NCBI RefSeq assembly: GCF_022808815.1
Contig: NZ_JAKZLC010000003.1
Coordinates: forward strand, 248,001-312,000
Reading direction: 5' to 3'
DNA length: 64,000 nucleotides
DNA from: Geothrix paludis
Lineage (GTDB): Bacteria > Acidobacteriota > Holophagae > Holophagales > Holophagaceae
Positions 8,762-25,345 of the stretch are shown here, in pieces (the first letter of the stretch is position 1; each line of letters starts with the position of its first letter). The position numbers and the translations under genes are program-made. The notes beneath the pieces were generated by a model that did not search any database, was not told the origin of the DNA, and was given only the letters and a program-made list of their open reading frames with translations.

Positions 8762-9945
8762 ACACGACGCCGATCCCTCGTTCCTCGTGGCGCATCTGCT
8801 TTGTCACGACCCTCTATGTCACCTTGGACACCTTCGTCCGGCAACAGGCCGAGACTCTGGTGAAAGCCGGTTGGGAGGTTACTTGGGTCTCCGCACCCAG
8901 GACGGGGAATCAACCTGCTCCGCCTGCCGGGGTGCGCCATGTGCCCCTGCCCATTGTCCGCGGGTCTTCAGCCCTTGGAACCATCAGGGGTTTCTTGGCT
9001 TTGTTCAGATTGTTCCGCCGGGAACGCTTCGACCTCGTGCAGTACTCCACTCCGAACGCCGCCTTCTGCGCTTCCCTGGCGGCGCGTCTCGCCGGTCAGC
9101 CACGGCGCTTATACGCCCAGTGGGGGCTTCGTTATGTGGGATTTTCCGGCCTGACGCGCTCGTTTTTCAAGGCGGTGGAACGCTTCGTCTGTGCCTGTTC
9201 CACCTTGGTGCAACCCGACAGCGCTAGCAATCTGGCCTTTGCCATCGACGAAGGCCTGTACCCACCTTCCAAGGGCCGCGTCATCGGCCATGGAAGCGCC
9301 TGCGGGGTGAACCTCGGGCGGTTTGATGCGGACCAGCGAGAATCCTGGCGCGCGGTCCACCGCCAGGAGGCGGGGTTGGACGAGGGTCATGTGGTCATCG
9401 GATTTGTCGGGGCCGTATGCCGGGACAAAGGCTGTAATGAACTGCTCTTCGCAGCCCAGCAGTTGCTCTCGGATCATCCCGAGGCTCGCCTGATGCTTGT
9501 CGGCCCCTGTGATTTTCTCAAGACCTTGGATCCCGCGCTCCTGGCCTGGGCCCAGGCCTCCAATCAGGTGATCTGGGTGCCTCCCACTCGGTGGGTCCCG
9601 GAGTACTTGGCTTGCATGGATGTCTTCGCGTTCCCCAGCTACCGGGAAGGATTCGGCATGGCGGTCGTCGAGGCGGAGGCCATGGGGCTGCCCGTCGTGG
9701 TCACCGACATTCCTGGGCCCCTGGATGCCATGGTGGACGGAATCACCGGGCTCGTCGTGCCGGTGAAGGATGGGCCTGCCCTTGCTTCGGCTCTGCGGCG
9801 CCTGTTAGTTGATCCCTCCTTGCGGGCCCGCTTGGGAGCCGGTGGCCGGGAGCTGGTGGCCAAGCGGTTCGAGCAGACCTGGTTCATGGAACAAGTCCGG
9901 GCGGACAAAGCCAGGATGGTTCAGGAAGGGGCGCTTCATGCCTAG
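8758..9945 (+). CDS. Glycosyltransferase family 4
   Basis: 395 residues with a GT-B fold. The N-terminal half binds the acceptor. The C-terminal donor-binding half contains IGFVGAVCRDKGCNELLFA and VFAFPSYREGFGMAVVEAEA, the latter being the conserved E-x7-E segment, followed by GLPVVVTDIPG. Predicted to transfer a sugar from a nucleotide donor to the lipid-linked repeat unit at the cytoplasmic face. The ATGA overlap with wzc and the 8-bp overlap with the next gene place it firmly in the operon. Linkage and donor cannot be told from sequence. Confidence 0.92.
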   Translation: MNTTPIPRSSWRICFVTTLYVTLDTFVRQQAETLVKAGWEVTWVSAPRTGNQPAPPAGVRHVPLPIVRGSSALGTIRGFLALFRLFRRERFDLVQYSTPNAAFCASLAARLAGQPRRLYAQWGLRYVGFSGLTRSFFKAVERFVCACSTLVQPDSASNLAFAIDEGLYPPSKGRVIGHGSACGVNLGRFDADQRESWRAVHRQEAGLDEGHVVIGFVGAVCRDKGCNELLFAAQQLLSDHPEARLMLVGPCDFLKTLDPALLAWAQASNQVIWVPPTRWVPEYLACMDVFAFPSYREGFGMAVVEAEAMGLPVVVTDIPGPLDAMVDGITGLVVPVKDGPALASALRRLLVDPSLRARLGAGGRELVAKRFEQTWFMEQVRADKARMVQEGALHA

Positions 9946-10729
9946 GGTGTCCATTCTCACCGGGATCTATCAGTGCGAGGCCACCCTGGTGGAGGCTCTG
10001 GAATCCATCCTGGCCCAGACCTTTACGGACTGGGAGATGATCCTCTGCGACGATGGGTCCACCGACCGGTCACCCGAGATCGCCCAATCCTTCGTGGACC
10101 GTGATTCCCGCTTCGTGCTGATTCGGAACCCCCGGAATCTGGGCTTGGCGGCTGCGCTCAACCTGGCCTTTCAGCACGCCAAGGGGGAGTACCTGGCGCG
10201 CATGGATGGCGACGACCGTTCCCGGCCTGACCGGCTGGCCATCCAGGTGGCGTATCTGGATGCGCATCCCAGCTGCGCCGTAGTGAGTGGCGCCATGGCG
10301 TCCTTTGATGAGAAGGGGTTCTGGGGCACCATCCGGCCGAGGCAGCAGGATCCTTCTCTCGAAAGCCTGGCTTGGAGCACGCCATTCACCCATGCCCCCT
10401 GCATGATGCGTCGGGAAGTGCTGGCGCGGGTTGGCGGCTACCGGACCGATGTGGGCCGAGTGGAGGATTACGACCTATGGGTGCGGGTCTACGCTGCGGG
10501 ATTCAAGGGCCACAACCTGGACCAAGTGCTTTACGAGGTGCGGGAGGACCGTGCCACCAATCGCCGCCGGGACTATCGCCGCCGGGTGGATGAGGCTCGG
10601 GTGGCCTGGCGGGCCTGCCGAATGCTCGGGCTGTCATGGCGGGGCCATATCGGAGCGTTGCGCCCTCTTCTGGTGGGTCTGCTGCCCACAGCCATCTATG
10701 AAACCCTGAGGAAGCGCCGGCATGCCTGA
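9938..10729 (+). CDS. Glycosyltransferase family 2
   Basis: 263 residues from the ATG at 9938; the longer open frame upstream lies inside the previous gene. A classical GT-A N-terminus is visible: MPRVSILTGIYQCEATLVEA, then ILCDDGSTDRSPEIA, then ARMDGDDRS, which is the metal-binding DxD. It ends in VEDYDLWVRV, the usual ED acceptor loop. Predicted cytoplasmic or membrane-associated transferase acting on the polysaccharide repeat unit. Overlaps the upstream transferase by 8 bp. Confidence 0.93.
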   Translation: MPRVSILTGIYQCEATLVEALESILAQTFTDWEMILCDDGSTDRSPEIAQSFVDRDSRFVLIRNPRNLGLAAALNLAFQHAKGEYLARMDGDDRSRPDRLAIQVAYLDAHPSCAVVSGAMASFDEKGFWGTIRPRQQDPSLESLAWSTPFTHAPCMMRREVLARVGGYRTDVGRVEDYDLWVRVYAAGFKGHNLDQVLYEVREDRATNRRRDYRRRVDEARVAWRACRMLGLSWRGHIGALRPLLVGLLPTAIYETLRKRRHA

Positions 10730-10783
10730 ATCCCCGGTCCGGTCCACCCGCCGGCCGGGGCCCTCGGCTGAGGGAGCCTGCGT

Positions 10784-11878
10784 GTGATTCCACTTCCCCT
10801 CTACACCCCCATCTTCTACCACGCCGTGTTGGCGCTGGTGCTGGGAACGGCCTTGGTCTATCTGATGTCGCCGTTCGGCGCACCCTCCCGTGCCGTGGGG
10901 GTGGTTCTGACCTGGGGCCTGGCCTTGGCGGTGATCCTCTACATGGGCCTGCGTCCCATCAGCGGGCGGTACTTCGTGGACATGGGCACCTACGCCTTCG
11001 ACTTCAAGCGGCTCCAGGGGCCCGGAGCCCCACCGGTGATGTATGGCGCTGGCGAGTGGGCCTTCGCGGGCTTCATGAAGGCCTCGGCAGCGGCCATGTC
11101 GGCCGAAACCTGGTTCCTGCTCTGCGCAGCCCTGTACGTGGGAGTCATCGCCTGGGCCGTCTGGCGGGTGCATGGCCCCCGAGCCGCCTACCCGACCCTG
11201 CTCATGGCCGTGTCCTCGTTTTCCTTCTGGGCCTATGGCACCAATGGCATCCGCAACGGGCTGGCGACCTCCCTGGTGCTGCTGGGCATGGCATTCCGGG
11301 ATCGCAAGATTCCCATGGCCCTGATCTTTATCCTGGCCATCGGCACCCATGCGTCAGCGATCCTGCCCATCGCCGTCTTCCTTCTGACCTTCGTCTACGC
11401 CAACCCAATGGCCTATTTGGGGGGGTACCTCTTTGCAGTGCTGCTATCCCTGACCATGGGGGGCTGGTGGGAGCAGGCCTTCGCAGCTTCGGGTCTGATG
11501 GGGGATGGGCGGTTCTCCGGCTACCTGGTGGACCAGTCCAACGCCCAGGCTTTCAGCGCCACGGGGTTCCGCTGGGACTTCCTGGCCTACAGCCTCTGGC
11601 CCATCGCCATGGGAGGCTGGCAGATCTTCCGCAATAGGTTCACAGACCGCTTCTACCTCCAGCTCTTCAACACCTACGTCGCCGCGAACGCCTTCTGGGT
11701 TCTGGTGATCCGGGCGAGTTTCTCGAATCGCTTTGCTTACCTGTCGTGGTTCCTGATGTCCTGGGTGATGGTCTATCCCCTGCTGGCAGATGCCGCGTCG
11801 AGGGGACGCAACCGTGCCTTGGCAGGGGTCCTCTTGGCCTATTTCGGGTTCACCTACCTGATGTTCCTGAAGGGATGA
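10784..11878 (+). CDS. EpsG-like polysaccharide polymerase (Wzy-type), multi-pass membrane
   Basis: 364 residues with about nine or ten hydrophobic segments. EpsG-family features include GRYFVDMGTYAFDF after the second helix and FSFWAYGTNGIRNGLATSLV, the conserved NxxR-N/Q motif, in the middle; THASAILP follows. Start is GTG at 10784 with GGGAG upstream. In a Wza/Wzc/Wzx locus this is the expected polymerase that joins flipped repeat units in the periplasm. Assignment rests on topology, the short motif and genomic position, and sequence in this family is poorly conserved. Confidence 0.8.
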   Translation: MIPLPLYTPIFYHAVLALVLGTALVYLMSPFGAPSRAVGVVLTWGLALAVILYMGLRPISGRYFVDMGTYAFDFKRLQGPGAPPVMYGAGEWAFAGFMKASAAAMSAETWFLLCAALYVGVIAWAVWRVHGPRAAYPTLLMAVSSFSFWAYGTNGIRNGLATSLVLLGMAFRDRKIPMALIFILAIGTHASAILPIAVFLLTFVYANPMAYLGGYLFAVLLSLTMGGWWEQAFAASGLMGDGRFSGYLVDQSNAQAFSATGFRWDFLAYSLWPIAMGGWQIFRNRFTDRFYLQLFNTYVAANAFWVLVIRASFSNRFAYLSWFLMSWVMVYPLLADAASRGRNRALAGVLLAYFGFTYLMFLKG

Positions 11879-11882
11879 TCAG

Positions 11883-12611
11883 ATGCCCCGCATCCCCAAG
11901 ATTCTGCACTACTGCTGGTTCGGGAAAGGCAACCTACCGCTGGAGGCAATCCAGTTCATCGATGGGTGGCGAAGGGTTTGCCCCGACTATGAAATCCGCG
12001 AATGGAATGAAACCAATTTCGACGTGTCCTGCTGCCGCTATGTATCAGAAGCTTATGAACGCCGTAAGTTTGCATTCGTCAGTGATTATGCTCGTGGGTG
12101 GGCGCTGCTTCAGCACGGTGGCATCTACCTCGATACTGACGTTGAACTCCTTCGGCCCATGGATGTTTTTCTCGAGCATCAGGCCTTCTTCGGGTTCGAA
12201 CACGGCCACTATGTTGCCACCAGCACCTTCGGTTGCGCCCAGGGCCACGAGATCATCAAGGAATATCTGGCGCAATACCAGGATCGGGCCTTTGTAGAAG
12301 CGAACGGGCGTGAGGACCTGACCACTAACGTCCAGGTACTTACCCAACTCCTCGAACGGCGAGGTCTGATCCTCAATGGCCTGCGACAAGATCTGCCTGA
12401 TGGTGTGGCTTGCTATCCGGAGACTGTGTTCTCCCCTTACGATTACGCCAACTGTCTGGACCATCGGACACCCGCGACGGTGGCCATCCACCACTATGCC
12501 CAGACATGGGTAACACCCAAAGGGAAGGCACTTCGGCGGCTGAAAGAAACTGTTGCGGCTCTCGGTGGTGGGCCTTTGATCAAGTACCTTCGAAGGTTAT
12601 TGCGGTCCTAG
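11883..12611 (+). CDS. DXD-motif glycosyltransferase (GT32/capsular polysaccharide synthesis type)
   Basis: 242 residues. The family hallmark is visible as IPKILHYCWFGKGNLP at the N-terminus, NFDV and then FVSDYARGWALLQHGGIYLD followed by TDVELL, which contains the DxD metal and nucleotide-sugar site. It lies 4 bp after the polymerase gene. GC content drops noticeably from about here to ~18 kb, which suggests the central part of the locus is more recently acquired. Donor and acceptor unknown. Confidence 0.88.
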   Translation: MPRIPKILHYCWFGKGNLPLEAIQFIDGWRRVCPDYEIREWNETNFDVSCCRYVSEAYERRKFAFVSDYARGWALLQHGGIYLDTDVELLRPMDVFLEHQAFFGFEHGHYVATSTFGCAQGHEIIKEYLAQYQDRAFVEANGREDLTTNVQVLTQLLERRGLILNGLRQDLPDGVACYPETVFSPYDYANCLDHRTPATVAIHHYAQTWVTPKGKALRRLKETVAALGGGPLIKYLRRLLRS

Positions 12612-12652
12612 ATTCTTCCCTCGACCACGACACCTCATTCGGGTTAATCGGC

Positions 12653-13852
12653 GTGAAGCATCAATCTCTTGGCACTCGAAGGAGGATTCTAGTCCTCTCC
12701 CACGCCATGCGGATTGGCGGGGTGGAACGGTCCTTGATCGGCCTGCTAGAGCACCTGCTCCTTGAGGGGCATGAGGTGAGCCTCTTTCTCTGGGCTCATG
12801 AAGGGGAGTTCATGGGACTCCTGCCTGCTGGAGTGCGCCTGCTTCCAGAACTGCCGGCCTACACAATGCTTGAGCGCCCCATCCACCGGGTGCTCACCGA
12901 GGGGTATGTGGGCATCGCTCTGGCCCGGTTTGCGGCCAAGGTCGTAACTGCCCTGCGGGATCAGTTTCTGGGGCGACCCGGCTTCCTGCTTCCACGAAGC
13001 CTTCGCTACTGCCTGCCTTTTCTTCCTCCCATTCCAGGGCGCTATGACCTGGTCCTGAGCTTCCTCACCCCCCACGATGTGGCGCGAGCCAAGGTGCAGG
13101 CCGATCGCCGGGTTGGATGGATCCATACGGACTACGGTTCCGTGGAATACGGGGTGGACCAGGCCTTTGAGTGGCCCATGTGGGCCGCCATGGACCGCAT
13201 CCTAGCGGTGTCCGAAGGTGTCCGTGACTCCTTCATCAAGGTCTTTCCGGAAGCGTCAGGCCGCACGGGTGTCATGGAGAACATCCTTTCCTCCACCTTC
13301 ATCCGTCAGCAGGCCGAAGGGGATGTGAGTGCCGAGATGCCCCAGGAGCCGGGAATCGCGCGCCTTTTTTCAGTCGGACGATTCTGCCATGCAAAAAATT
13401 TCGACTCCGTGCCGCAGATTGTGCGCCGTCTGGGTGAATTGGGATGTCTGGTGCAGTGGTACCTCGTCGGCTTTGGGCCCGATGAGGTGCTCATCCGGCG
13501 GCGAATCGCGGAAGAGGGGGTTGGGGATCGCGTCATCATCCTGGGGAAGAAAGCCAATCCCTATCCGTACATGAAGGCCTGCGACCTCTATGTCCAGCCT
13601 TCGCGATACGAGGGGAAGGCCGTGACCGTGCGCGAGGCCCAGATTCTAGGCAAACCGGTTCTGATTACCGCTTATGACACCGCTCCAAGTCAGATCCGCC
13701 ATGGAGAGGATGGGTGGATTTGCTCCCTGGACCCGCAGGGCATTGCTGAGGCGATCCAGATGCTGCTGACGAAACCGGGCCTCATGGCGCGGCTAGCTGA
13801 ATGCGGACATATCAGCAGCCAGGGCATCGAGAATGATGGTTGGTCATTTTGA
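12653..13852 (+). CDS. Glycosyltransferase family 4
   Basis: About 399 residues from a GTG at 12653. There is no good ribosome site, and the open frame extends upstream inside the preceding gene, so the start is uncertain. GT-B features are RILVLSHAMRIGGVERSLIG (N-terminal nucleotide-fold strand and glycine loop), then LFSVGRFCHAKNFD, YMKACDLYVQPSRYEGKAVT and VREAQILGKPVLITAY with the E-x7-E pair. It is the last gene of the plus arm and is followed by a hairpin shared with the opposing gene. Confidence 0.88.
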   Translation: MKHQSLGTRRRILVLSHAMRIGGVERSLIGLLEHLLLEGHEVSLFLWAHEGEFMGLLPAGVRLLPELPAYTMLERPIHRVLTEGYVGIALARFAAKVVTALRDQFLGRPGFLLPRSLRYCLPFLPPIPGRYDLVLSFLTPHDVARAKVQADRRVGWIHTDYGSVEYGVDQAFEWPMWAAMDRILAVSEGVRDSFIKVFPEASGRTGVMENILSSTFIRQQAEGDVSAEMPQEPGIARLFSVGRFCHAKNFDSVPQIVRRLGELGCLVQWYLVGFGPDEVLIRRRIAEEGVGDRVIILGKKANPYPYMKACDLYVQPSRYEGKAVTVREAQILGKPVLITAYDTAPSQIRHGEDGWICSLDPQGIAEAIQMLLTKPGLMARLAECGHISSQGIENDGWSF

Positions 13853-13913
13853 TGGATTTGTGATGGATTTGGTCCAAATTGTTAGAAAATATAAAAGCTT
13901 TAGTTGGGGATTG

Positions 13914-15458
13914 TTACTCAAAAGATGTATTTTTGAGTTTTAATTGCGCGCTATAGCCGGTTTCTCTTAGCAGAATTCGTATGGCATAAGCGGCCGCGGC
14001 CATGGGCGTACCAAGACTGACAAATCCGACGCCAGAGCCCGACTGATGACACCAGGAAGCCCAAGCCATGAGCAACCCCATTCCCACCAAGAACTCCCAG
14101 ATGGCTGGGTTTGTTCGCGAGCAGAATCCCAGGGATCTTCCGTGGGCGAGGATCAATAGCCCAGCGTAGGCCAGGGTGGCGAGGGTTAGTGCCCATGCAG
14201 CGCCCAGGACCCCCCAACGGGGAACGAGCCAGAACAACAGACCGGCATTGAGAAGGGTGAAGGTGCTTTCGTACGCGAGGTACAGGGAACTCCTTCCTTG
14301 GGCCAAGAGGGCCAAGCGGAAACCGGACACCAACACTCGGGCAAAGACCGCGACAGCGAGTAACCGCAGAATCCCGGCTGCTTCGATGAATGAGGTGGTG
14401 TAGAGCAGGCTAAGCAAGTGGGGTGCGAGGCCTAGGATGAACATGAGCCCTGGAAAGGCCAGCAGGACGGACATGCGGAGTTGTTGATTGAAGGAAGCAT
14501 TGAAAGCGCTGGGCTCCCTGACTTGGCTCGCCAACCTGGGGTAGAAATCGGTGCTTAGGGCTGTGAGCACGAAAGTGGCCAGCATGGTCGAAATGGACGA
14601 GGCTGCCTGGTACTGACCTAGCGCAGCCAAGCTGGTGGAGCGTGTGATGGCCAATCGCTCGATATTGGGGTAAACCGCGCCGATCACCGCCGAAAGCATC
14701 ACGGGCGCCCCGAAACGTATAAGCCCGCCCGCCTCAATGATGCGTTCGCGCCAGGGGATCGTGGTCGATGGGAGGTCCAAGCGCCGGGTGTACCAGGCTG
14801 CCACGGCCAGGGTGGCGAAGCCGCCGGCGACGATGGCCAGGGGAATGCCGTAGGGACCGCAGAATACAAGAAGGGGGATGGTTAGGAGTGTTCCTACCAC
14901 GGCCCCAAGGATGTTGATGATGGCCAGGTCAGTGATTCGGCGAAGGCCTTGGATGACACAAGTGTAGGCTGTCGTCAGGGCCCGAAAGAGGATGGTCAAC
15001 CCCAGAATGGCCACTGAGAGGGAAGCACCGGGAGCCTTCAACACCCAAGTGGCGGCAGGGTGGCTGAACCCAATCATCAGGAGGCAACCGACTCCGCCGG
15101 TGGCCCAGGTCGTCACCTTGAGGGTGGAGGCAACCTTGGAAACCTCGATCTGATCCGGAGCCCCGGAATACTGGGCGATTCGTCGGATGCCGCTGGTCCC
15201 CAGGCCGAAGCTGGTCAGGATGGCAATGATCTCCACCCAGCCGGACATCAGGCCGAACAGCCCAACCCCGGGGGGGCCGCTGACGAGGGCGATCACCTTG
15301 GTCCGAACCAGCCCGACGGCCATGACGATGATGGAACTCAGACTGACGATGACCGTGGACTTGAGGATGTCCTTGGATTCGGCTTGCCGGCCCCGGGCTC
15401 CAACGGACAGAGCTGGCGCCAAGTTATTGGCCGGTTGGATGGAGGAAGGGGCGGGCAT
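13914..15458 (-). CDS. wzx: O-antigen/exopolysaccharide flippase (Wzx-like, MOP superfamily)
   Basis: 514 residues with twelve or more predicted helices. The N-terminus STVIVSLSSIIVMAVGLVRT, then KVIALVSGPPGVGLFGLMSG, matches the oligosaccharide-translocase type of the MATE/MOP superfamily. It would move undecaprenyl-diphosphate-linked repeat units across the inner membrane to the EpsG-like polymerase. It is the last gene of the minus arm, 9 bp after the pyruvyl-transferase-like gene. Confidence 0.9.
   Translation of the reverse strand: MPAPSSIQPANNLAPALSVGARGRQAESKDILKSTVIVSLSSIIVMAVGLVRTKVIALVSGPPGVGLFGLMSGWVEIIAILTSFGLGTSGIRRIAQYSGAPDQIEVSKVASTLKVTTWATGGVGCLLMIGFSHPAATWVLKAPGASLSVAILGLTILFRALTTAYTCVIQGLRRITDLAIINILGAVVGTLLTIPLLVFCGPYGIPLAIVAGGFATLAVAAWYTRRLDLPSTTIPWRERIIEAGGLIRFGAPVMLSAVIGAVYPNIERLAITRSTSLAALGQYQAASSISTMLATFVLTALSTDFYPRLASQVREPSAFNASFNQQLRMSVLLAFPGLMFILGLAPHLLSLLYTTSFIEAAGILRLLAVAVFARVLVSGFRLALLAQGRSSLYLAYESTFTLLNAGLLFWLVPRWGVLGAAWALTLATLAYAGLLILAHGRSLGFCSRTNPAIWEFLVGMGLLMAWASWCHQSGSGVGFVSLGTPMAAAAYAIRILLRETGYSAQLKLKNTSFE
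13916..13938. terminator. Hairpin between convergent arms, candidate bidirectional terminator
   Basis: ACTCAAAA-GATGTAT-TTTTGAGT forms an 8-bp stem followed by TTTAA on the plus strand, 63 bp after the last plus-strand glycosyltransferase. It overlaps the last codons of the opposing flippase gene. Position and T-run suit a terminator for the plus arm; efficiency in the other direction is doubtful. Confidence 0.5.
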
Positions 15459-15467
15459 CTATGGGGC

Positions 15468-16442
15468 TCAGGCCACGCTGCTGATGAATGCTCGGCAGGT
15501 TGTTTTGAGAGATTCGGCCCATGCCTCGTGGGTCGTGGGGTTTTCGGGGACGATGCCCCGCTGGAGTAGAGCCTGGAGATCGAAAGTCGCCTCGTAGCCC
15601 CCATCAGGGTGTATGTCTATCCGATGGAACAGGTCGATCAATCCGTCGAAGCGGCAGTGGTCCACCTCGGAAGGAAAGTAGTTCAGGAAGATCACGGGAG
15701 TCCCCAGGGCCAAGCAGGGGAGGGCCGCATGAATCCGGGAGGTGATCACCAACCGGGCCTTCGCGTACCTGGACAAATAGGTCTCGGCCAGTGTGAATCT
15801 GTCTTCCTGGGTTGTCTTGGCGGCGGGCAAGACATGGTGAAGCACACGGGAAGAGGCGAGGAATGTCGCGGGGAAGATTCGATCCAGAAGTCGCTGGCCA
15901 AGCCCCAGCCTTGGGAGGTCGCCCTGGAGGATGTGGCGCACCAGAGATCTCGGGCTCGAAAAGCAGGATGCGAGGGTCGGGAGGCTGAAGAATGGATCGA
16001 CGAGGTAGATTTCCTCCGTTCGTTCGGATGGGTTCCCTCGGTACGAATCCAGGGTCAGGGTCAAACAGCCGGAGAAGTACGCCTCGATACCCACCGATTG
16101 GAGCAGATCGCGGGTGTGATGGTCCCGGCAGCCGATCGGCTGGTGTTCCTTCAGATACGCGATCCCCGTATGGCTGAGGATGCCGGCAGCGGCGCTCGAG
16201 TTAATGTGGAAGGAGGTGAAAAGCGGCTGGATGGTCTTCGAGGGGATCCAGTTCTGGTGATTGTGGGTGAACCATCCATTGAGAATCATGGCGATCGGAT
16301 CGCCGGAGTAGGCCCCCAACTCCTCACGGTTGATCAGTCGGTCTACTGAAGGAAGAAACTGCTTGGCGGCTAGGCTTTGGATGTAATCGCCAAGGTTGTA
16401 GGTCGTAGAAGGATGGTGATAACCCAGCAGGCCATAGATCAT
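15468..16442 (-). CDS. Polysaccharide pyruvyl transferase family protein
   Basis: 324 residues. Family features are the N-terminal NLGDYIQSLAAKQFLP, then GCRDHHTRDLLQSVGIEAYF, GCLTLTL in the middle, and LVITSRIHAALPCLALGTPV near the C-terminus (the conserved SRIH/ALG segment). Characterised members transfer pyruvate from phosphoenolpyruvate to form acidic ketals on sugars. Others in the same fold act as glycosyl- or phosphotransferases, so the exact reaction is not certain. It overlaps the upstream PP-loop gene by 4 bp (ATGA), so the two are probably coupled. Confidence 0.85.
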   Translation of the reverse strand: MIYGLLGYHHPSTTYNLGDYIQSLAAKQFLPSVDRLINREELGAYSGDPIAMILNGWFTHNHQNWIPSKTIQPLFTSFHINSSAAAGILSHTGIAYLKEHQPIGCRDHHTRDLLQSVGIEAYFSGCLTLTLDSYRGNPSERTEEIYLVDPFFSLPTLASCFSSPRSLVRHILQGDLPRLGLGQRLLDRIFPATFLASSRVLHHVLPAAKTTQEDRFTLAETYLSRYAKARLVITSRIHAALPCLALGTPVIFLNYFPSEVDHCRFDGLIDLFHRIDIHPDGGYEATFDLQALLQRGIVPENPTTHEAWAESLKTTCRAFISSVA

Positions 16443-17764
16443 TGCAGACGATTCCTATTGGAGTGGTGGGTCAAGTGGCGGGATAGCCGACGTCTAAGCC
16501 CAAGGTAAACAGAAAATGCCAATGGAAATTGTAAGGCCACCTTTGTCTTAAAGTTGATGTAGGGGGTGCCCTTTTCGGTGCGCTTCCTCTCGATACTGAG
16601 TTGAATGAATTGCGACAGTTCTTTTTGGGCCAACTTGCGGAGGTAGTACCTGTCCGATTCAGGGATGATGAAATTGAGGGGCTTGGCCTGGGCCGCAAGG
16701 TTCTCGATCTGTTTCCAAAGACGAAGGTTGGATGGGTTGGAGGCGAATCGGCCATGCTGGAATGCCTCGAAAAGATACTGAAACGGCTTATCGGGAAGAG
16801 GAATACCGTAGTCCATGGGATTTGCACCATGGAGTGCCAGAGTGACCGCAGTCCGTAGGCATTTTTCACAAACGCCACAATTCAGCGATTCTTTTGCATC
16901 TGAGTAGCAAACCCTCAACAAAGGTTTCGCCGGTAGGTCACGATAGGTCTCGACAATCAACCCGACCTTTTCGGCCCTGGAAAGTTCAGAACCATCATTG
17001 ATGACTTGGGTACTCGCCCAGCGGATTGCGGAGTCAGTCTCTGGCGTCGACCCCCAGGCGAAGTCTGTATCGGACGAGGCGATGTAGATTTTCCCGAGGC
17101 CGTGCAGATGAGCCAAAGGGGCAAGTGATGCTGTAAGCGCAAGTCCATGCTGTACCAAAGCCCACCAGTCAGCAGACACTAAGGCATGGAGGTGGTAAGT
17201 ATAGAATTCTCTGAAATCTGTTTTAACAATTGAACAGGGGAGGGTTGCTATGGGATCTAAGCGCTGGAAATAGGATTGGCAACTTTTCCATTGGAGAGTA
17301 TCCCGTAGAGGAATATCGGCGCCGTGATAGAGGATGAGCCGAGGGGATTCCTTGGCATGCCGGATGAAACTTGTGAAAGCGTCGACTCCTCCGCTGAAGA
17401 GAAGTGCTGTCTTTAAAGGGTTTTCTGAATAAATAGTCTCAATTTTGTCGTAGATTATATTGGATTGAAAATTTCTGTTTGGATGATGGTGGAGAAAAAG
17501 GGCCTTGATTGTATTTATCGATTTTAAAAAAGTCGAGTCTATGGTTGGCACATAGAGGTCGGCGTCCAAGAACCAAGCGATCGGGGCCATGTTGGCGAGA
17601 AAAGGTACTGTCAAAATGGACGCAGGGCAGGTTGAAATATCTTCCTCGTATTCAATGAAAAAGGATCTTTTTCGTTTAAAATAGGACTCAACACCTGGAC
17701 ATTGAAAATGATAGGTCAATCGTTTATTGTTGTTTGATAATAATATTTTTTCCAGCCTAATCAT
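16439..17764 (-). CDS. PP-loop (QueC/asparagine-synthase-like) ATPase in exopolysaccharide locus
   Basis: 441 residues. An uncharacterised ~115-residue N-terminal region is followed by LLFSGGVDAFTSF, the SGGxD PP-loop of N-type ATP pyrophosphatases, which activate a carboxyl or carbonyl group as an acyl-adenylate. Further conserved segments are LILYHGADIPL, IYIASSDTDFAWGS, INDGSELSRAEKVGLI and a CGVCEKC motif (CxxCxxC, probably zinc binding as in QueC). The first third of the gene is AT-rich compared with the window, a sign of transfer. It is coupled by ATGA overlap to the pyruvyl-transferase-like gene. It is not a typical PseA/WbpG amidotransferase by eye. I infer an ATP-dependent sugar or lipid-linked modification; the substrate is unknown. 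Confidence 0.75.
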   Translation of the reverse strand: MIRLEKILLSNNNKRLTYHFQCPGVESYFKRKRSFFIEYEEDISTCPASILTVPFLANMAPIAWFLDADLYVPTIDSTFLKSINTIKALFLHHHPNRNFQSNIIYDKIETIYSENPLKTALLFSGGVDAFTSFIRHAKESPRLILYHGADIPLRDTLQWKSCQSYFQRLDPIATLPCSIVKTDFREFYTYHLHALVSADWWALVQHGLALTASLAPLAHLHGLGKIYIASSDTDFAWGSTPETDSAIRWASTQVINDGSELSRAEKVGLIVETYRDLPAKPLLRVCYSDAKESLNCGVCEKCLRTAVTLALHGANPMDYGIPLPDKPFQYLFEAFQHGRFASNPSNLRLWKQIENLAAQAKPLNFIIPESDRYYLRKLAQKELSQFIQLSIERKRTEKGTPYINFKTKVALQFPLAFSVYLGLRRRLSRHLTHHSNRNRLQ

Positions 17765-17850
17765 AGCTGCCTCTTTTAACCATATCAGTTGTCTTTAATT
17801 TAAAACCGAATGTCATCGAATGACTGCATACATGGGTTCATCTAATAGGC

Positions 17851-18882
17851 TTAGGCCAGGGCTGAATTCAGAGAAGAATTTGATTTTATCCAGGTCAAGC
17901 CATCACTGCACATGGCCATTAGATCGCGTTCGGCACGCCAACCGAGCATGGTGTGCGCTCGGTCGGGATTGGCATAACACAGAGCGATGTCGCCAGGGCG
18001 GCGAGGGCCGAATTGCCAGGGAATGGGGTGTCCCATGACCTTTTCCATGGCTTGGATCATCTCCAGCACAGAATATCCGCGCCCCGTGCCGAGGTTGATG
18101 GGGATGGCGCCTTCGATCCTGGGCAGGGCCTTCAGGGCTGCCAAATGCCCGAGGGCGAGATCGACGACATGGAGGTAGTCCCTCACGCCTGTACCATCTG
18201 GCGTGGGGTAGTCCTGCCCGAAGACTTCCAGGTGAGGGCGATGGCCGCTGGCCACTTGGAGGAGGTATGGCATCAGATTGTTGGGAACGCCTTGGGGATC
18301 CTCACCCAGCAGGCCGGAAGGATGGGCTCCCACGGGATTGAAGTACCGCAGCAGGGCAATGCGCCAGCCAGGTTCGCTCTTGGCCAAGTCCCGGCAGATC
18401 TCCTCGATCATGAGCTTGGAACGCCCATAGGGATTGGTGGCGGAAAGTGGGGAATCTTCGCGGATCGGCACCTCGGCTGGGTCACCATAGACCGTGGCCG
18501 AACTAGAGAACACCAGGTTGCGGCAGCCGGCACCCCGCATGGCCTCCAGCAGGTTCAGAGTGCCCGTGACGTTGTTCTGGTAGTAGGTCAGGGGTACCCG
18601 GGTGGATTCGCCCACGGCCTTCAGGCCCGCAAAGTGGATGACGGTCTGGATGGGATGATCGCGGAAGAGGGCGGCCATGCAGCCTGGGTCTCGCACATCG
18701 CCTTCCACGAAGGTGAAGTCTCGGCCTGCCAGGGTGCAGATGCGGCTGATGACGGAAGGTTTGGCGTTGGCGAAGTTGTCCAGGGCCACGACTGCGTATC
18801 CGGCCTGAAGCAACTCCACGACAGTGTGGGACCCGATGAATCCGGCGCCGCCGGTGACCAGAATGGTGTCGGGGTTGGACAT
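17851..18882 (-). CDS. galE: UDP-glucose 4-epimerase
   Basis: NAD-dependent SDR enzyme interconverting UDP-glucose and UDP-galactose. Visible features are ILVTGGAGFIGSHTVVELLQ (Rossmann GxxGxxG), VALDNFANA, VIHFAGLKAVGES, FSSSATVYG (catalytic Ser) and NPYGRSKLMIEE (catalytic YxxxK), with NLGTGRGYSV near the end. 343 aa, normal length. Start at the ATG at 18882, preceded by AAGGAAG; the longer open frame upstream belongs to the overlapping HAD gene region. Supplies galactose-type donors for the polysaccharide. Confidence 0.97.
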   Translation of the reverse strand: MSNPDTILVTGGAGFIGSHTVVELLQAGYAVVALDNFANAKPSVISRICTLAGRDFTFVEGDVRDPGCMAALFRDHPIQTVIHFAGLKAVGESTRVPLTYYQNNVTGTLNLLEAMRGAGCRNLVFSSSATVYGDPAEVPIREDSPLSATNPYGRSKLMIEEICRDLAKSEPGWRIALLRYFNPVGAHPSGLLGEDPQGVPNNLMPYLLQVASGHRPHLEVFGQDYPTPDGTGVRDYLHVVDLALGHLAALKALPRIEGAIPINLGTGRGYSVLEMIQAMEKVMGHPIPWQFGPRRPGDIALCYANPDRAHTMLGWRAERDLMAMCSDGLTWIKSNSSLNSALA

Positions 18883-18899
18883 GGCTTCCTTCTTTGAAC

Positions 18900-19613
18900 T
18901 CAAGCCTGGCTTGAAAGGAGGGGATTCCAAAGGAACCGACGCAACGCTTCCACGCCCTGGACCCGATGGGTTGCAATGGCCTGAACGGAGGGAGGCTCTG
19001 GGGTGGCATGGACCTGCCCGGGGTGCTCCACTTGCACGGTGATCCATCCCATCTGGTTCGGAGCGATGAAGTCCTTGGCGGGATTGTCGGCGATGTAGGC
19101 CACAGCGGCACCGTTCAGGCCGAATGTGGCTTCCATCTGTCTGAATGCCCTTTGATGAGGTTTCCAGAAATCCCTGCCCCACGCGTCTGTGAGCAAGATG
19201 GGATCGGCCCAGCGGGCGACCCCTAGAGCCTCGGCTTTGCGAGTCTGGGCTTCGAGAAATCCGTCTGAGATCAGGCCGATGGGCATGGCCCTTGCCTTTA
19301 CCTCGTCGAGGAGACGTTCCATGCCGGGATACAACCTGATGTTGGGGCGATGATTCCGATAAACCTGAACCAAGTCGGCCACGGTGAAGCGACCTGCCAA
19401 GCTGGGTCGAGTCGCAAGGAGGGCATCGAAAACCGCCCCCCTCTGGCCAGATTGAACCTCGTGGATGAAGGCAAGGGTTTCCTCGGCAGGAAGGCTGGCC
19501 TCCGTTTCGAGCCAGGCTGCCACCGCCCGGAAGCCGCTCTCGACGTAAGTGCACTCAGGGTAGAGCGTGTCATCCATGTCAAAGACAAGGGCTTTCAGCA
19601 TCATCGGGCCCAT
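18900..19613 (-). CDS. HAD-family hydrolase
   Basis: 237 residues. The HAD catalytic motif is KALVFDMDDTLYPE (nucleophile and acid Asp pair). Motif II lies around IGLISDG, the conserved Lys in WKPHQRAF, and motif IV is YIADNPAKDF. The start is ambiguous among ATGs at 19613, 19604 and 19601; the first overlaps the upstream ATP-grasp stop. Probably a sugar-phosphate or related phosphatase. It is immediately coupled to the ATP-grasp gene, and such pairs recur in polysaccharide loci, suggesting a shared substrate. Confidence 0.88.
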   Translation of the reverse strand: MGPMMLKALVFDMDDTLYPECTYVESGFRAVAAWLETEASLPAEETLAFIHEVQSGQRGAVFDALLATRPSLAGRFTVADLVQVYRNHRPNIRLYPGMERLLDEVKARAMPIGLISDGFLEAQTRKAEALGVARWADPILLTDAWGRDFWKPHQRAFRQMEATFGLNGAAVAYIADNPAKDFIAPNQMGWITVQVEHPGQVHATPEPPSVQAIATHRVQGVEALRRFLWNPLLSSQA

Positions 19614-20566
19614 GGCAGCTGCTCAAGAAAGACCTCGGTGTGGTGCCGGGTCATGTAGAGGTTCTTTCGGTAGGCGCCGAAGGTGGGGGCCAGAGCTTCA
19701 CCCCGGAGCATGCGGAGGATCCATGCTGGGTAATCGCCCCCGGCTGCGCGGGCCAGGGGGAAGCCGCCTCCAAAGCGGGGATTGATCTCGCTGAGGACCG
19801 GGCCGTCAGGCGTCAGAAAGGCCTGAAGGGTGAGGGGGCCCCGGGCACCAAGCCGGCTGCAAGCCTCCAGGACGGTCACCAGCCAGGCATCCACGTCGGG
19901 ACGGTCCAGGGTCACGCCTTGGATGGACTCCCCGCCCAAAGTCCGGATCCGCTCTCGGGGGACGAAGTGGAGGGGACGGCCCTGCAGGTCGAAGCAGGCA
20001 TCGATGGTGATCTCCTGCCCCACCAGCCGCTCCTGGATGATGGGGTGGGGGACGAGGGGGAGCATGCGATCCAGGTCAGGGCGTTGGCAGGGATAGATGT
20101 GGCTGCTGGCGCTGCCGTCCCGGGGTTTGAGGAAAAGGTCCATCGGAAGACGGTCATCGGCGGTTTCCGGCAGCCAGGATGCTGGAACGGGAATTCCAGC
20201 ATCCTTGAAAGCCTGGAAGGTGAGCCACTTGTCGCCGGTGATTCGCACGAAATCTGGCGAGGAGATCAGGGATGTGATGCCCTCGCCCAGGAAACGTGAT
20301 GCGTGGTCCGCGAGGATCTGAAGTTCAGTGTCGATGGTGGGGACAATCAGTTGAATCTGCTGGCGTTGGCACAGGCCGAGTAGGGTGGGGATGTAATCCA
20401 GGGCCGTGACCCTCGGAACCTGGAATGCACCGTCTGCCAAGGCGCAGGCTGGGGCCAGGGGATCCATGTCTGCCACGAAGACCTTGCTTCCCATGGGATG
20501 CGCAGCCTCCAGAAAGGCCTTGAGCAGGGAAACGCGTCGCCCTGCGCTGGTCAGGAGGATGTTCAT
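19601..20566 (-). CDS. ATP-grasp ligase (carbamoyl-phosphate-synthase-like)
   Basis: 321 residues. The N-terminal pre-ATP-grasp fold is MNILLTSAGRRVSLLKAFLE. The nucleotide-binding region has ITGDKWLTFQAFKDAGIPVP and FLKPRDGSASSHIY, then IIQERLVGQEITIDACFD. Metal-binding carboxylate and Asn lie in VLSEINPRFGGGFPLA. ATP-grasp enzymes join a carboxylate to an amine (or other nucleophile) through an acyl-phosphate. It overlaps the sugar-transferase gene by 4 bp and the HAD gene by up to 13 bp. With an aminotransferase in the same operon, acylation of a 4-amino sugar is a plausible role (inference). Confidence 0.85.
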   Translation of the reverse strand: MNILLTSAGRRVSLLKAFLEAAHPMGSKVFVADMDPLAPACALADGAFQVPRVTALDYIPTLLGLCQRQQIQLIVPTIDTELQILADHASRFLGEGITSLISSPDFVRITGDKWLTFQAFKDAGIPVPASWLPETADDRLPMDLFLKPRDGSASSHIYPCQRPDLDRMLPLVPHPIIQERLVGQEITIDACFDLQGRPLHFVPRERIRTLGGESIQGVTLDRPDVDAWLVTVLEACSRLGARGPLTLQAFLTPDGPVLSEINPRFGGGFPLARAAGGDYPAWILRMLRGEALAPTFGAYRKNLYMTRHHTEVFLEQLPWAR

Positions 20567-21198
20567 GAATGCTCCATCGTGGACATTGGAGTAGCGGTCT
20601 GATCCTCTTCAAACTCCGGCATGGTCTCGTGCCCTTCAGCGCTGATCCCTTCCCGCAGGATGACCTTCCGGGCGGTGAGCAGAAGAATCCGCAGGTCCAG
20701 GGTCATGGACCGGTGATCCACGTACCAGGTGTCCAAGGCAAAGCGGGTATCCCAATCCACTGTGTTGCGGCCATTGACCTGGGCCCAGCCGGTGATGCCG
20801 GGCGGGCAGTCGAGACGGCGGCGCTGCTCGGGGGTGTAGCGCGGGACATATCGCACGGGTAGGGGCCTCGGCCCCACGAGGCTGAGGTCGCCCCAGAGGA
20901 CGTTCAGCAGCTGGGGCAGCTCGTCCAGGCTGCTGCTGCGGAGGGCCTGGCCGAAGGGGGTGAGCCGGTCTCCGTCGGGCAGGAGGTGGCCTTCCGGATC
21001 CCGGGCGTCGGTCATGGTGCGGAACTTGAAGATGGTGAAGGGGCGACCGAAACGCCCGGCGCGCGCCTGCCGGAACAGCACAGGCGACCCCAGCTTCCAG
21101 CGCACCAGCAGGGCCGTGAGGGCCAGGACGGGCGCGAGGAGGAGCAGGAGGACCAGGGCGACGCCCAGGTCCAGGGCGCGTTTCAGGAAGGGGTACAT
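20563..21198 (-). CDS. Initiating sugar-1-phosphate transferase (PglC/WcaJ C-terminal type)
   Basis: 211 residues: a short monotopic phosphoglycosyl transferase without the WcaJ N-terminal helices. It begins with KRALDLGVALVLLLLLAPVL (reentrant helix), then PVLFRQARAGRFGRPF and FKFRTMTDA, then the catalytic SSLDELPQLLNVLWGDLSLV with the DE pair and VGPRPLP, then GITGWAQVNGRN. It would load the first sugar phosphate onto undecaprenyl phosphate. The PglC-like size fits a bacillosamine-type (2,4-diamino) first sugar, supported by the adjacent aminotransferase and dehydratase. Confidence 0.93.
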   Translation of the reverse strand: MYPFLKRALDLGVALVLLLLLAPVLALTALLVRWKLGSPVLFRQARAGRFGRPFTIFKFRTMTDARDPEGHLLPDGDRLTPFGQALRSSSLDELPQLLNVLWGDLSLVGPRPLPVRYVPRYTPEQRRRLDCPPGITGWAQVNGRNTVDWDTRFALDTWYVDHRSMTLDLRILLLTARKVILREGISAEGHETMPEFEEDQTATPMSTMEHS

Positions 21199-21200
21199 GA

Positions 21201-22397
21201 TCAGCCGGCGGCCTCGGAGAAGCTGTCACCCATGGCGGCCTCCAGAGCGCCCCGGAGGGTCCGGAGCAGCCGGTCGTGGTGGGCCTCCTTCAGGCCGGGG
21301 TGGACCTGGAACATCAGGCTGGTCTCGCCCAGCTGCCGGGCCACGGGCAGGGGGGCCTCGGGGCCCAGGCCGGCTCCGGTGAAGGCCTTTTCCCGGTAGA
21401 TCTCGCCGCAGCTGCCGCTGAAGCAGGGGACGCCCTGGTTGGCGACCTCGATCATGATGCGGTCGCGGGTCCAGCCTTCCTGCAGCTGCTCGGGGCGGAT
21501 GTAGACGTAGGCCTTGTAGGCGGCGTGGCCGAAGTCGGGGCCGGGGCGGGGCACCCGCAGGGCCGGGTGGCCTTCCAGGCCATCGAGGAGGTAGGCCATG
21601 TTCTGGCGGCGGAGGCGGGTCCACTCCGCCAGCTTGCGGAGCTGGAGGCGCCCGATGGCGGCCTGGACTTCTGTCATGCGCCAGTTGGTGCCGAAGGATT
21701 CGTGCAGCCAGCGGAACCCGGGCGCGTGCTCGCGGTGGTAGACCGCGTCGAAGCTCTTGCCGTGGTCCTTGTATTCCCAGGCCCGGCGCCATACCTGCTC
21801 GTCGTTGGTGGTGAGCAGGCCCCCTTCGCCGCCGGTGGTGATGATCTTGTCCTGGCAGAAGGAGAAGCAGCCCACGTGGCCGAGTCCGCCTACGGGGCGG
21901 CCCTTGTAGGTGGCGCCGTTGGCCTGGGCGCAGTCCTCGATGACCTTCAGCCCGTGCCGCTCGGCCAGCTCCAGGATGGGATCCATGTCGCAGGGCCAGC
22001 CCGCCAGGTGCACGGCGATGATGGCGCGGGTCCGCGGGGTGATCACCTGGGCGATGGACTCGGCGGTGAGGTTGCCGCTGTCGGGATCCACATCCGCCAG
22101 CACGGGGACGCAACCCTGGGCCACGGCGGCACTGGCGCTGGCGATGAAGGTGCGGGGGGTGGTGATGATCTCTGAGCCGGCGGGCAGATCCAGGGCACGG
22201 ATGGCCAGCTCCAGGGCCGCGGTGCCGTTCATGAGGGCCACGCCGTACGTGCAGCCGGAGGCCTCGGCGTACTCCTGCTCGAAGGCCCGGCCCTCCTGGC
22301 CGGTCCAGTAGTTCACCTTGCCGCTGCGGAGGACGCGGGTCACGACCTCGACTTCATCCTCGGCATAGGTGGGCCAGGGGGGGAAGGTGTGGGGCAT
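21201..22397 (-). CDS. DegT/DnrJ/EryC1-type sugar aminotransferase
   Basis: 398 residues, PLP-dependent. Visible motifs are NGTAALELAIRALDLPAGSE, ITTPRTFIASASAAVAQG, VHLAGWPCDMDPI and VIEDCAQANGA (Asp contacting PLP nitrogen). CFSFCQDKIITTGGEGG carries the Schiff-base lysine. These enzymes aminate a 4-keto (or 3-keto) nucleotide sugar using glutamate. The upstream partner is a membrane 4,6-dehydratase that makes the 4-keto substrate. GGAG stands upstream of the ATG at 22397. Unlike pgl loci, no PglD-type acetyltransferase follows. Confidence 0.95.
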   Translation of the reverse strand: MPHTFPPWPTYAEDEVEVVTRVLRSGKVNYWTGQEGRAFEQEYAEASGCTYGVALMNGTAALELAIRALDLPAGSEIITTPRTFIASASAAVAQGCVPVLADVDPDSGNLTAESIAQVITPRTRAIIAVHLAGWPCDMDPILELAERHGLKVIEDCAQANGATYKGRPVGGLGHVGCFSFCQDKIITTGGEGGLLTTNDEQVWRRAWEYKDHGKSFDAVYHREHAPGFRWLHESFGTNWRMTEVQAAIGRLQLRKLAEWTRLRRQNMAYLLDGLEGHPALRVPRPGPDFGHAAYKAYVYIRPEQLQEGWTRDRIMIEVANQGVPCFSGSCGEIYREKAFTGAGLGPEAPLPVARQLGETSLMFQVHPGLKEAHHDRLLRTLRGALEAAMGDSFSEAAG

Positions 22398-22498
22398 GGG
22401 AGGTCTCCGGCAAAGGGCCGTAGGTGCGGCGGGGAAGGTCGAGCAAATGCGAATCGGGTAGGCGATTTAGGCGGGGCGGATGGCCGGGAGGGCCAGGA

Positions 22499-24469
22499 CT
22501 AGGAGCCGTCCGCGAGGTAGACGGGGTTGGCGCCGGAGTGGCGGCGGTCACGGTTCTCTTCGGCGAACCGGCCGAGGCCCAGAGCGGAGGGGGTGTAGGT
22601 GGGCACCAGGCGGCGCAGCCAGCGCAGCATCTGGGCCTGCCGTCGGCCCTCGTCCTCCTCCATGGCGAGGCGCAGGCCATCCAGGCCCTGCTCGAACAGG
22701 GGGTCCTCCGGCTCCCGGAGGTGGGCGTCCAGGACCTTGGGGTGCACGTCCGTGCGGGATTCCTCCTGGGCGGAGAACAGCTCTTCGAAGAGCTTCTCGC
22801 CGGGTCGGATGCCGGTGAACTTCACTTCGATGTCCCGGCCGGGCACCAGGCCCGAGAGGCGGGCCATGTCTGTGGCCAGGTCGACGATGCGGACGGGCTC
22901 GCCCATGTCCAGGACGTAGACCTTGCCGGTGTCGCCCAGGATGCCGGCCTGCAGGGCCAGCTGGCTGGCCTCGGGGATGGTCATGAAGTAGCGGATCATG
23001 TCCGGGTGGGTCACCGTGAGGGGGCCGCCGGCCTGGATCTGCTGGCGGAAGATGGGGATCACGCTGCCCCGGCTGCCCAGCACGTTGCCGAAGCGCACGC
23101 TCACGTAGTGGGCGCCCGCGGGCGCGCGGCGCGCGGCGCGGAGCACCAGACCCTCGGCGATGTGCTTGGAGGCCCCCAGCACGTTGGTGGGGTTGACGGA
23201 CTTGTCCGTGGAGATGTTCACGAAGGTGTGGACCCCCACGGCCAGGGCCGCGTCCAGCACCCGCTCGGTGCCGAAGATGTTGTTGTTGACCGCCTCCTCG
23301 GGGTGGGCCTCGAGGTAGGGCACGTGCTTGTGGGCGGCCGCGTGCAGCACCACCTGGGGCCGCCAGCGCTCGAACACGTGCCGCAGGCGGTTGGTGTGGC
23401 GGATGTCGCAGAGCTCGAGGGAGAGCGCCTGGTTGGGGAACAGGGCGCGGAGATCGCGCTCGATCTCCCACAGGCTGTTCTCGCCGCGGCCCAGGAGGAT
23501 GAGCCGGGCCGGGCGGAAGGCGGCCACCTGGCGGGCCAGCTCGCTGCCGATGGATCCGCCAGCGCCGGTGATGAGCACCGTGGCGTCCTCGAGGATGCTG
23601 CCGAGGGCGCTCTGGTCGAGCTGGATGGGCTCGCGGCGCAGCAGGTCCTCGATGGAGACGTCGCGCAGCTCGGGCTTCCAGGTCCGGGGGCCCAGCAGGT
23701 CGGAGATGCCAGGCACGGTCTTGATGCGGACGCCGGTGGCCTGGGCCTCCTCCCGCAGGCGGCGGATGATGGCGCCGCTGGCGCTGGGGATGGCCAGCAC
23801 CACCTGGGTGATGCGGTGGTCGGCGATGAGGGTGCGGAGCAGCCGGGACGGGCCCATCACGGGGACGCCCTGGAGGAGGATGCCCTGCTTGTCGAAGGCG
23901 TCGTCCACATAGCCGATGACCTGGCTGCCCAGCTCGGGGTGCCGCTGGATCTCCTGGGCCACGAGGAGCCCGGCCCGGCCGGCCCCCACGATGAGCGTGC
24001 GCTGGCGGGCATCGGGGGCTGTCTCCTGCAGAATGCCCTCGTAGCGCGCCCGGACGAAGGTGCGGGCCAGGGCCCAGGTCACGGCAGTGGCGAGGCTGGC
24101 GGTGACAAGGGTGTCGAAGCTGAGGGCGCCTTCGAGGTCGGGCGTGAGGTGGCCGAGGAGCAGGGCGGTCAGGCAGAGGGTGAGGGAGGCTGCCGTCAGC
24201 TGGAGCGTGTCCCTGAAGCCGATGTAGCGGTACTGCTGGCGGGTGAGCCGGAAGCCGAGGTTGACCACCCCGCACAGGCCCACCCAGGCATAGAGGTGCC
24301 AGGCGATGGGGGATCCCACGGACAGGAACCGCTCGCTGGCCGCCCACGCCAGGCCCGCCAGGAGGAGGTCCAGGGTCAGCTTGACCGCCTGCCGGAGCAG
24401 GGGATGGCGCCTCAAGGTGCGGTTGGTGGGCATGGGTTGACTCGGGTTCAGGGAAGGGGAGACATCCAT
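22499..24469 (-). CDS. Membrane NDP-sugar 4,6-dehydratase (FlaA1/WbpM/PglF-like)
   Basis: 656 residues from the ATG at 24469; a TTG extension to 24538 is possible but lacks support. Four N-terminal transmembrane helices (about residues 25-135) precede a CoA-binding-like Rossmann domain (TLIVGAGRAGLLVAQEIQ). The SDR dehydratase domain follows, with VLITGAGGSIGSELARQVA, FVNISTDKSVNPTN and VLGASKHIAE. It converts UDP-GlcNAc-type substrates to the 4-keto-6-deoxy form. In WbpM the residue four before the catalytic Lys is Met (SMK triad), and here it is Leu (VLGASK). First gene of the minus arm, 101 bp before the aminotransferase. Confidence 0.93.
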   Translation of the reverse strand: MDVSPSLNPSQPMPTNRTLRRHPLLRQAVKLTLDLLLAGLAWAASERFLSVGSPIAWHLYAWVGLCGVVNLGFRLTRQQYRYIGFRDTLQLTAASLTLCLTALLLGHLTPDLEGALSFDTLVTASLATAVTWALARTFVRARYEGILQETAPDARQRTLIVGAGRAGLLVAQEIQRHPELGSQVIGYVDDAFDKQGILLQGVPVMGPSRLLRTLIADHRITQVVLAIPSASGAIIRRLREEAQATGVRIKTVPGISDLLGPRTWKPELRDVSIEDLLRREPIQLDQSALGSILEDATVLITGAGGSIGSELARQVAAFRPARLILLGRGENSLWEIERDLRALFPNQALSLELCDIRHTNRLRHVFERWRPQVVLHAAAHKHVPYLEAHPEEAVNNNIFGTERVLDAALAVGVHTFVNISTDKSVNPTNVLGASKHIAEGLVLRAARRAPAGAHYVSVRFGNVLGSRGSVIPIFRQQIQAGGPLTVTHPDMIRYFMTIPEASQLALQAGILGDTGKVYVLDMGEPVRIVDLATDMARLSGLVPGRDIEVKFTGIRPGEKLFEELFSAQEESRTDVHPKVLDAHLREPEDPLFEQGLDGLRLAMEEDEGRRQAQMLRWLRRLVPTYTPSALGLGRFAEENRDRRHSGANPVYLADGS

Positions 24470-25318: not shown

Positions 25319-25345
25319 TAAAAAGGCCTTTCGCCGGAAGAAGCC

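Follow-up and report, generated by a model that had tools for sequence, protein, structure and literature searches.

An ATP-grasp and HAD gene pair in the acetyltransferase position of an amino-sugar polysaccharide locus of Geothrix paludis

Introduction

The Campylobacter bacillosamine pathway runs through PglF, PglE, PglD and PglC, that is, a dehydratase, an aminotransferase, an acetyltransferase and a small phosphoglycosyl transferase (PGT) (PMC6519341; this and the other papers are cited for their accessible parts). Here, we describe a minus-strand gene run in a 64-kb stretch of Geothrix paludis DNA (contig NZ_JAKZLC010000003.1; the whole stretch is called the window, and all positions refer to it). 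The run shares the dehydratase, the aminotransferase and the small PGT with that pathway but is without PglD, and an ATP-grasp ligase and a HAD phosphatase are found instead. We consider it probable that these genes make a lipid-linked 4-acylamino-4,6-dideoxy sugar, with the ATP-grasp ligase replacing PglD for an acyl group other than acetate and the HAD protein serving as its partner.

The closest described system is that of Neisseria. Its PglB2 is an ATP grasp/phosphoglycosyl transferase that yields a glyceramido sugar, and in this glyceramido-acetamido-trideoxyhexose (GATDH) pathway a PGT with an ATP-grasp domain replaces a PGT with an acetyltransferase at the same locus, as in the window; the N-terminal PGT domain is common to the Neisseria alleles and the parts after it differ (PMC11130364). 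The glyceroyl role of the C-terminal domain is termed proposed in the accessible text of PMC6959607, where a figure legend also counts a HAD hydrolase among the genes drawn for the N. oralis pgl region, its position not being stated. A split pglB2 is stated to remain functional (PMC4569582). The use of ATP-grasp chemistry in place of an acetyltransferase is thus already known in kind, a precedent in print that a first-pass annotation of the Geothrix DNA, made from its sequence alone, had missed. Our comparison with PglB2 is by description and architecture. Unlike the single polypeptide of PglB2, the PGT and ATP-grasp of the window are separate genes with an ATGA overlap, followed by an overlapping HAD gene, and the locus is one for a polysaccharide rather than for a pilin glycan.

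A second point of reference is the set of Qui2NAc4NR O-antigen loci of Flavobacterium psychrophilum, in which the acyl groups on the 4-amine vary. There, strains predicted to carry different 4-acyl groups have PglC homologues that are virtually identical save for distinct C-terminal sequences, which parallels the position of a junction in the window pglC described below. Unlike the window, acylation is predicted for PglD-homologue acyltransferases, one of them with an acyl carrier protein (PMC6519341). In the literature searched, which mostly excluded subscription papers, we found no polysaccharide locus described with an ATP-grasp/HAD pair. As far as that literature goes, three things are new: the co-inherited HAD protein, the spread of the cassette over several phyla, and the exchange of PglD for ATP-grasp/HAD within one genus.

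Results

An amino-sugar gene run without a PglD-type acetyltransferase

The run extends from 24469 down to 13914 on the minus strand and encodes, according to Pfam and NCBIfam profile matches and, for the PP-loop protein, to fold and alignment, a PglF-type dehydratase, DegT, PglC, ATP-grasp, HAD, GalE, PP-loop and PS_pyruv_trans proteins and a flippase. The families named in the first-pass annotation are all confirmed. The pathway opens with a PglF-type membrane 4,6-dehydratase (22499..24469; Polysacc_synt_2, 9e-110), the substrate of which we take from family knowledge to be UDP-N-acetylglucosamine (UDP-GlcNAc); its start was set to the ATG at 24469, the mechanical open reading frame starting at 24538. 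It is followed by a DegT/PglE-type aminotransferase (21201..22397; PF01041, 1.5e-89), expected to give the 4-amino sugar, and, after a spacing of 2 nt, by a PglC-type small PGT of 211 residues (20563..21198; PF02397, Bac_transf, 4.4e-59). The ATP-grasp ligase (19601..20566), carbamoyl-phosphate-synthase-like and PylC-like, is the proposed N-acyl ligase for the 4-amine, and the HAD phosphatase (18900..19613; PF00702, 5.2e-16) its putative partner. ATGA overlaps join pglC to the ATP-grasp gene and the PP-loop gene to the pyruvyl-transferase gene, and, between these pairs, the possible start codons of HAD overlap the stop codon of the ATP-grasp gene. The translational coupling read from the sequence earlier thus holds for both pairs, and the minus-strand run would presumably be carried on a single transcript.

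No acetyltransferase lies within the run, in agreement with the first-pass annotation, so that the PglF dehydratase and PglE aminotransferase of the bacillosamine pathway are present and its PglD acetyltransferase is not found there. The same annotation had allowed for an acetyltransferase elsewhere in the genome acting on the same sugar. The host genome (3.4 Mb in 9 contigs, 96.65% complete) gave no match to the NeuD/PglD family (TIGR03570) at 1e-35, its best match reaching 52.4 bits (cut-off, 160.8); the search was confined to this one acyltransferase family. At the same threshold the family was matched in 66 of 297 genomes of a phylum sample, including 9 of the 20 other genomes of the genus. 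A complementary search with NF009405, the carbamoyl phosphate synthase-like profile of the ATP-grasp protein, gave matches at 1e-70 in 24 of the 297 genomes, with the host itself among them, and in none of the other 20 of the genus. A further genome of the genus, G317, which lies outside the 297-genome sample, has one ATP-grasp (locus L147).

ATP-grasp and HAD occupy the PglD slot of a same-genus genome

A DegT search at 1e-60 matched 14 of 77 family genomes, the host included, and we read the surroundings of the 13 others. In one of them, the same-genus genome G166, colinear genes encode PglF, DegT and PglC with 91%, 92% and 82% amino acid identity to the window proteins. Directly after PglC, in the slot occupied by ATP-grasp and HAD in the window, G166 has a 217-residue NeuD/PglD-type acetyltransferase, which matches TIGR03570 over its full length at 157.5 bits, just below the cut-off of 160.8. 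The replacement of pglD by the ATP-grasp/HAD pair that was to be looked for in homologous loci is therefore seen within the genus. Because the pair occupies the PglD-type slot of a same-genus genome, a non-acetamide amide on the 4-amine is the best reading of the locus. The first-pass annotation had the amine of the sugar, or a carboxylate on the polymer, decorated with an amino acid or another amide instead of acetate; the non-acetate amide gains support from the G166 slot, and nothing points to the amino acid. Overall, its observation is confirmed and its interpretation partly supported.

The boundary between shared and unshared DNA is sharp. Identity between the window and G166 is 78-99% per 100 bp from 24400 to 20701, with three 100-bp intervals below 80%. 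Over 21200-20701 it is 81-96% per 100 bp, and from position 20700 downwards, in the 3' part of pglC, it falls to 46-56%. Homology to G166 is colinear over 24505-20684 and again over 8747-1722, and the two blocks are separated in G166 by about 16 kb of unrelated DNA. The window thus holds a variable cassette (8747..20700, no strand assigned) without DNA homology to G166 between conserved colinear flanks. The G+C content is 0.70-0.72 at 21-24 kb and 0.46-0.63 at 12-21 kb. Given the drop in DNA identity inside the pglC 3' end, the stretch from 8.75 to 20.70 kb looks like a cassette swapped between conserved flanks, with one junction inside pglC, near 20700.

Two features of PglB2 are therefore found in the window, a small Bac_transf PGT and, judged against G166, an ATP-grasp in the acetyltransferase slot. 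The union of both in one polypeptide is not; it occurs in a Clostridiales metagenome-assembled genome (locus L066), where PglC (residues 42-239) and ATP-grasp (246-559) form one protein. Directly after this fusion in L066, at 10945-12426 of that locus, lies a HAD protein fused to a LicD domain.

The HAD protein co-varies with the ATP-grasp ligase

ATP-grasp enzymes form acyl-phosphates and amides. The window protein passes the curated cut-off of NF009405 (405.2 versus 390 bits), and its predicted model (predicted local distance difference test, pLDDT, 91.6) has 2pn1 and then PylC (4ffl) as its nearest folds in the PDB. It resembles both in fold and has a PylC-like N-terminal domain; PylC substrates differ from those proposed here, and we know of no assigned function for 2pn1. 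In the HAD protein, DxDDT, K and DNPxKD-type motifs, which we take to be the HAD motifs, are conserved. Its profile against the PDB returns mixed HAD relatives and does not indicate a substrate.

We compared pairwise distances among 26 loci having all four of the ATP-grasp, HAD, PglC and DegT proteins. The correlation of the ATP-grasp distances is 0.88 with those of HAD, as opposed to 0.49 for PglC and 0.54 for DegT; for 18 non-redundant loci we obtained 0.84 (HAD), 0.28 (PglC) and 0.46 (DegT). On subsampling these 18 loci, the excess of the HAD correlation stays above zero, its 2.5th percentile being 0.16 versus PglC and 0.20 versus DegT. Larger sets gave similar figures of 0.82 for HAD (64 loci), 0.48 for PglC (38) and 0.56 for DegT (38). 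Species history alone would raise all three correlations together, unlike what is observed. We propose from these correlations that HAD would belong functionally to the ATP-grasp. Because HAD co-varies chiefly with that enzyme, its substrate may be placed with the acid or product of the ATP-grasp rather than with the sugar.

The same data bear on a different account, in which the ATP-grasp joins an amino acid such as glycine or alanine to the 4-amine and HAD is unrelated, for example dephosphorylating a sugar phosphate. PylC, an enzyme that joins amino acids, is among the fold relatives of the ATP-grasp, and its profile matches include D-Ala ligases and an L-amino acid ligase. However, an unrelated HAD leaves unexplained why co-variation with the ATP-grasp is stronger for HAD than for the sugar enzymes, and the sole precedent found in print, in the accessible parts of PMC11130364 and PMC6959607, is glyceroyl. 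We therefore regard this account as quite unlikely.

The pair recurs beside PglC and DegT in several phyla

Scanning species genomes of bacteria and archaea gave at least 571 confirmed ATP-grasp relatives among at least 587 matched stretches. The best 80, a set biased to close relatives, were analysed with profiles made from the window proteins; 26 of the 80 have fewer than five genes on one side. HAD is the next gene downstream of the ATP-grasp in 55 of the 80. PglC is next upstream of the ATP-grasp, or fused to it, in 31, and HAD is next in 27 of these 31. Within five genes of the ATP-grasp, HAD is found in 65 loci, DegT in 46, PglC in 39 and PglF in 27; PglC, HAD and DegT occur together in 26, and all four with PglF in 14. 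When the 55 loci in which HAD follows the ATP-grasp directly are split by the sugar enzymes encoded within five genes, PglC and DegT are both there in 27, PglC alone in 8 and DegT alone in 7. (The fused PglC domain of L066 is counted in this last split and not in the within-five-genes totals.)

The 80 loci span Acidobacteria, Bacillota, Bacteroidota, Pseudomonadota, Actinomycetota, Cyanobacteria, Chloroflexi and others, and the same gene set in other phyla speaks against a chance association. Two plasmids carry it by annotation: p3 of Priestia filamentosa has an aminotransferase, a sugar transferase, ATP-grasp and HAD, and a Segatella copri plasmid has a sugar transferase, ATP-grasp, two glycosyltransferase entries, HAD and an aminotransferase. 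A GNAT/FemAB-like gene (Acetyltransf_6) lies between HAD and DegT in loci L062 and L060, and L073 has a gene with similar size and start in the same place.

PglD and ATP-grasp are usual alternatives

Looking from the side of the acetyltransferase, we examined the best 30 of the TIGR03570 matches, with flanks of up to about 1.5 kb, some of them ended by contig ends. Neither the ATP-grasp nor this HAD was found in any of the 30 within such flanks; PglC was present in 8 and DegT in 15. Among the family DegT loci, L146 (174.2 bits) and L149 (160.6 bits) have a PglD-type gene adjoining DegT or PglC and no ATP-grasp, and L147 and L154 have ATP-grasp and HAD. PglD and ATP-grasp are usual alternatives, not strict ones: strict mutual exclusion was dropped for two exceptions, L151 and L079.

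These exceptions belong to a group of findings that weigh against the proposed N-acylation. In L151 (genome G339; 719-4784), a protein that joins a PglD domain to a further domain is encoded directly upstream of ATP-grasp, HAD and PglC, the ATP-grasp there being only 32% identical to that of the window. A PglD-like gene is present within the fetched stretch in 5 of the 80 ATP-grasp loci; only that of L079 lies within 2 kb, on the opposite strand at a distance of 1.8 kb, and the other four lie farther off. A short hexapeptide-type protein is encoded next to DegT in L154 and matches the PglD profile in its repeat part only. In 7 of the 13 family DegT loci, the stretch read contained no PglD and no ATP-grasp. 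HAD is not next in 4 of the 31 PglC-linked ATP-grasps, from which it follows that HAD is not indispensable. Finally, no motif in the PglC tail separated 35 ATP-grasp-adjacent PglC proteins (window included) from 14 PglC hits among 36 comparison loci (30 PglD and 6 family loci), in a rough test whose pattern fell, for several rows in each set, on an internal motif instead of the tail. The tail motif was accordingly rejected as a marker of the acyl group.

To these may be added 13 of the 55 ATP-grasp/HAD neighbours, in which neither PglC nor DegT lies within five genes. They would fit a reading in which the 4-amine is left free and ATP-grasp and HAD act elsewhere, on a side group of the repeat or on another amino sugar. 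The gene that follows the pair in L048 and L050 has, by eye, a beginning like that of a NeuB-type nonulosonic acid synthase, a neighbour from which the pair may serve other amino sugars too. Set against this reading are the PglD-type gene that G166 has at this position and the fusion of ATP-grasp to PglC in L066, and we judge it very unlikely for the window. N-acylation of the 4-amine by the ATP-grasp remains our preferred reading.

The PP-loop and pyruvyl-transferase pair

Downstream of HAD, the run continues with a GalE UDP-glucose 4-epimerase (17851..18882, minus strand; NF007956, 443.2 bits, cut-off 394), its start placed at the ATG preceding the conserved N-terminus. It is followed on the same strand by a PP-loop ATPase of 441 residues with a QueC-like core and an NCxxCxKC motif (16439..17764, assigned by fold and alignment and without a family match), a PS_pyruv_trans family protein (15468..16442; PF04230, 7.3e-16) and a Wzx-type flippase (13914..15458; PF01943, 1.2e-19). 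Searches of Pfam and NCBIfam at 0.001 gave no match for the PP-loop protein, the QueC profile included, and a sequence search of the PDB gave weak ankyrin matches only. SGG[VL]D and NCxxCxKC are kept in 11 of 11 aligned rows. The predicted core (model pLDDT 79.3) resembles QueC (2pg3) with a Foldseek probability of 1.00 but an E value of 0.013.

The first-pass annotation had made the PP-loop protein a second amide-forming enzyme; no evidence links it to the same amide. We considered whether it forms, with the pyruvyl-transferase-family protein, a second decoration pair, in which QueC-like adenylation would serve to amidate the carboxylate of an added pyruvate ketal or other group. That the PP-loop protein amidates a carboxylate is a guess. 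Besides the QueC-like core, the grouping of the two genes speaks for such a pair: in L056 and L057, PS_pyruv_trans, PP-loop and a flippase-size gene (513-515 residues) are grouped beside PglC, ATP-grasp, HAD and DegT, and on the Priestia plasmid a pyruvyl-transferase-family gene precedes two PP-loop paralogues. However, the window pyruvyl-transferase-family protein is barely like its L056 and L057 counterparts (28-32% over 62-81 residues) and has no measurable likeness to the plasmid one. A PP-loop match past 1e-8 was found in 7 of the 297 phylum-sample genomes, the host included, and of nine stretches that surround distant homologues of the PP-loop protein in the phylum, L158 alone has a match to the window pyruvyl-transferase-family protein. 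With the weak Foldseek E value added, a second decoration pair seems doubtful to us; it concerns another gene pair and is compatible with the acylation proposed above. Two haloarchaeal plasmids (L197, L198) carry PP-loop homologues of about 30% identity near an annotated glycosyltransferase, polysaccharide deacetylase, flippase or glycoside hydrolase, and no pyruvyl-transferase gene is annotated in the stretch around them.

No Rfam family or tRNA was found in the 64-kb window. A dispersed repeat of about 230 bp, part of it an inverted repeat, is present in full or partial copies at 1570-1859, 3781-4009, 4460-4682, 24978-25060, 25223-25326 and 28879-29140. Identity is 69-94% when the copy at 3781-4009 is taken as reference, and the colinear G166 region has similar copies too.

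Discussion

We infer the individual reactions and their order from family knowledge, as follows. PglF would dehydrate a UDP-sugar, UDP-GlcNAc by analogy, and DegT would add an amine at C4. The ATP-grasp would then turn a small carboxylic acid into an acyl-phosphate and couple the acyl group to the 4-amine, the job of the acetyl-CoA-dependent PglD. PglC would start the repeat by putting the acylated sugar-1-phosphate, its first residue, onto undecaprenyl phosphate. HAD would most likely strip the phosphate from a phosphorylated acid, as in phosphoglycerate to glycerate, or from a phospho-acyl product. The acyl group is probably that of a small hydroxy or phosphohydroxy acid. We likewise infer its glyceroyl-like nature, the HAD substrate and the stereochemistry of the sugar.

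A broader view, which we offer tentatively and with more doubt than conviction, is that ATP-grasp and HAD may constitute a mobile N-acylation module of several phyla. A phosphorylated hydroxy acid would be joined to an amino sugar and HAD would remove the phosphate, giving a glyceramido-type sugar instead of an acetylated one, and the module would be swappable with PglD by recombination inside pglC.

If the proposed function is true, ATP-grasp genes labelled 'carbamoyl phosphate synthase-like' would gain a role, the non-acetyl acylation of the first sugar of a surface glycan. It would also suggest a source for the glyceroyl group of Neisseria GATDH, namely a phosphorylated acid from which a partner phosphatase removes the phosphate. 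It would help to predict the acyl group of an initiating sugar from a genome, and would explain how a strain can change this group through one recombination inside pglC.

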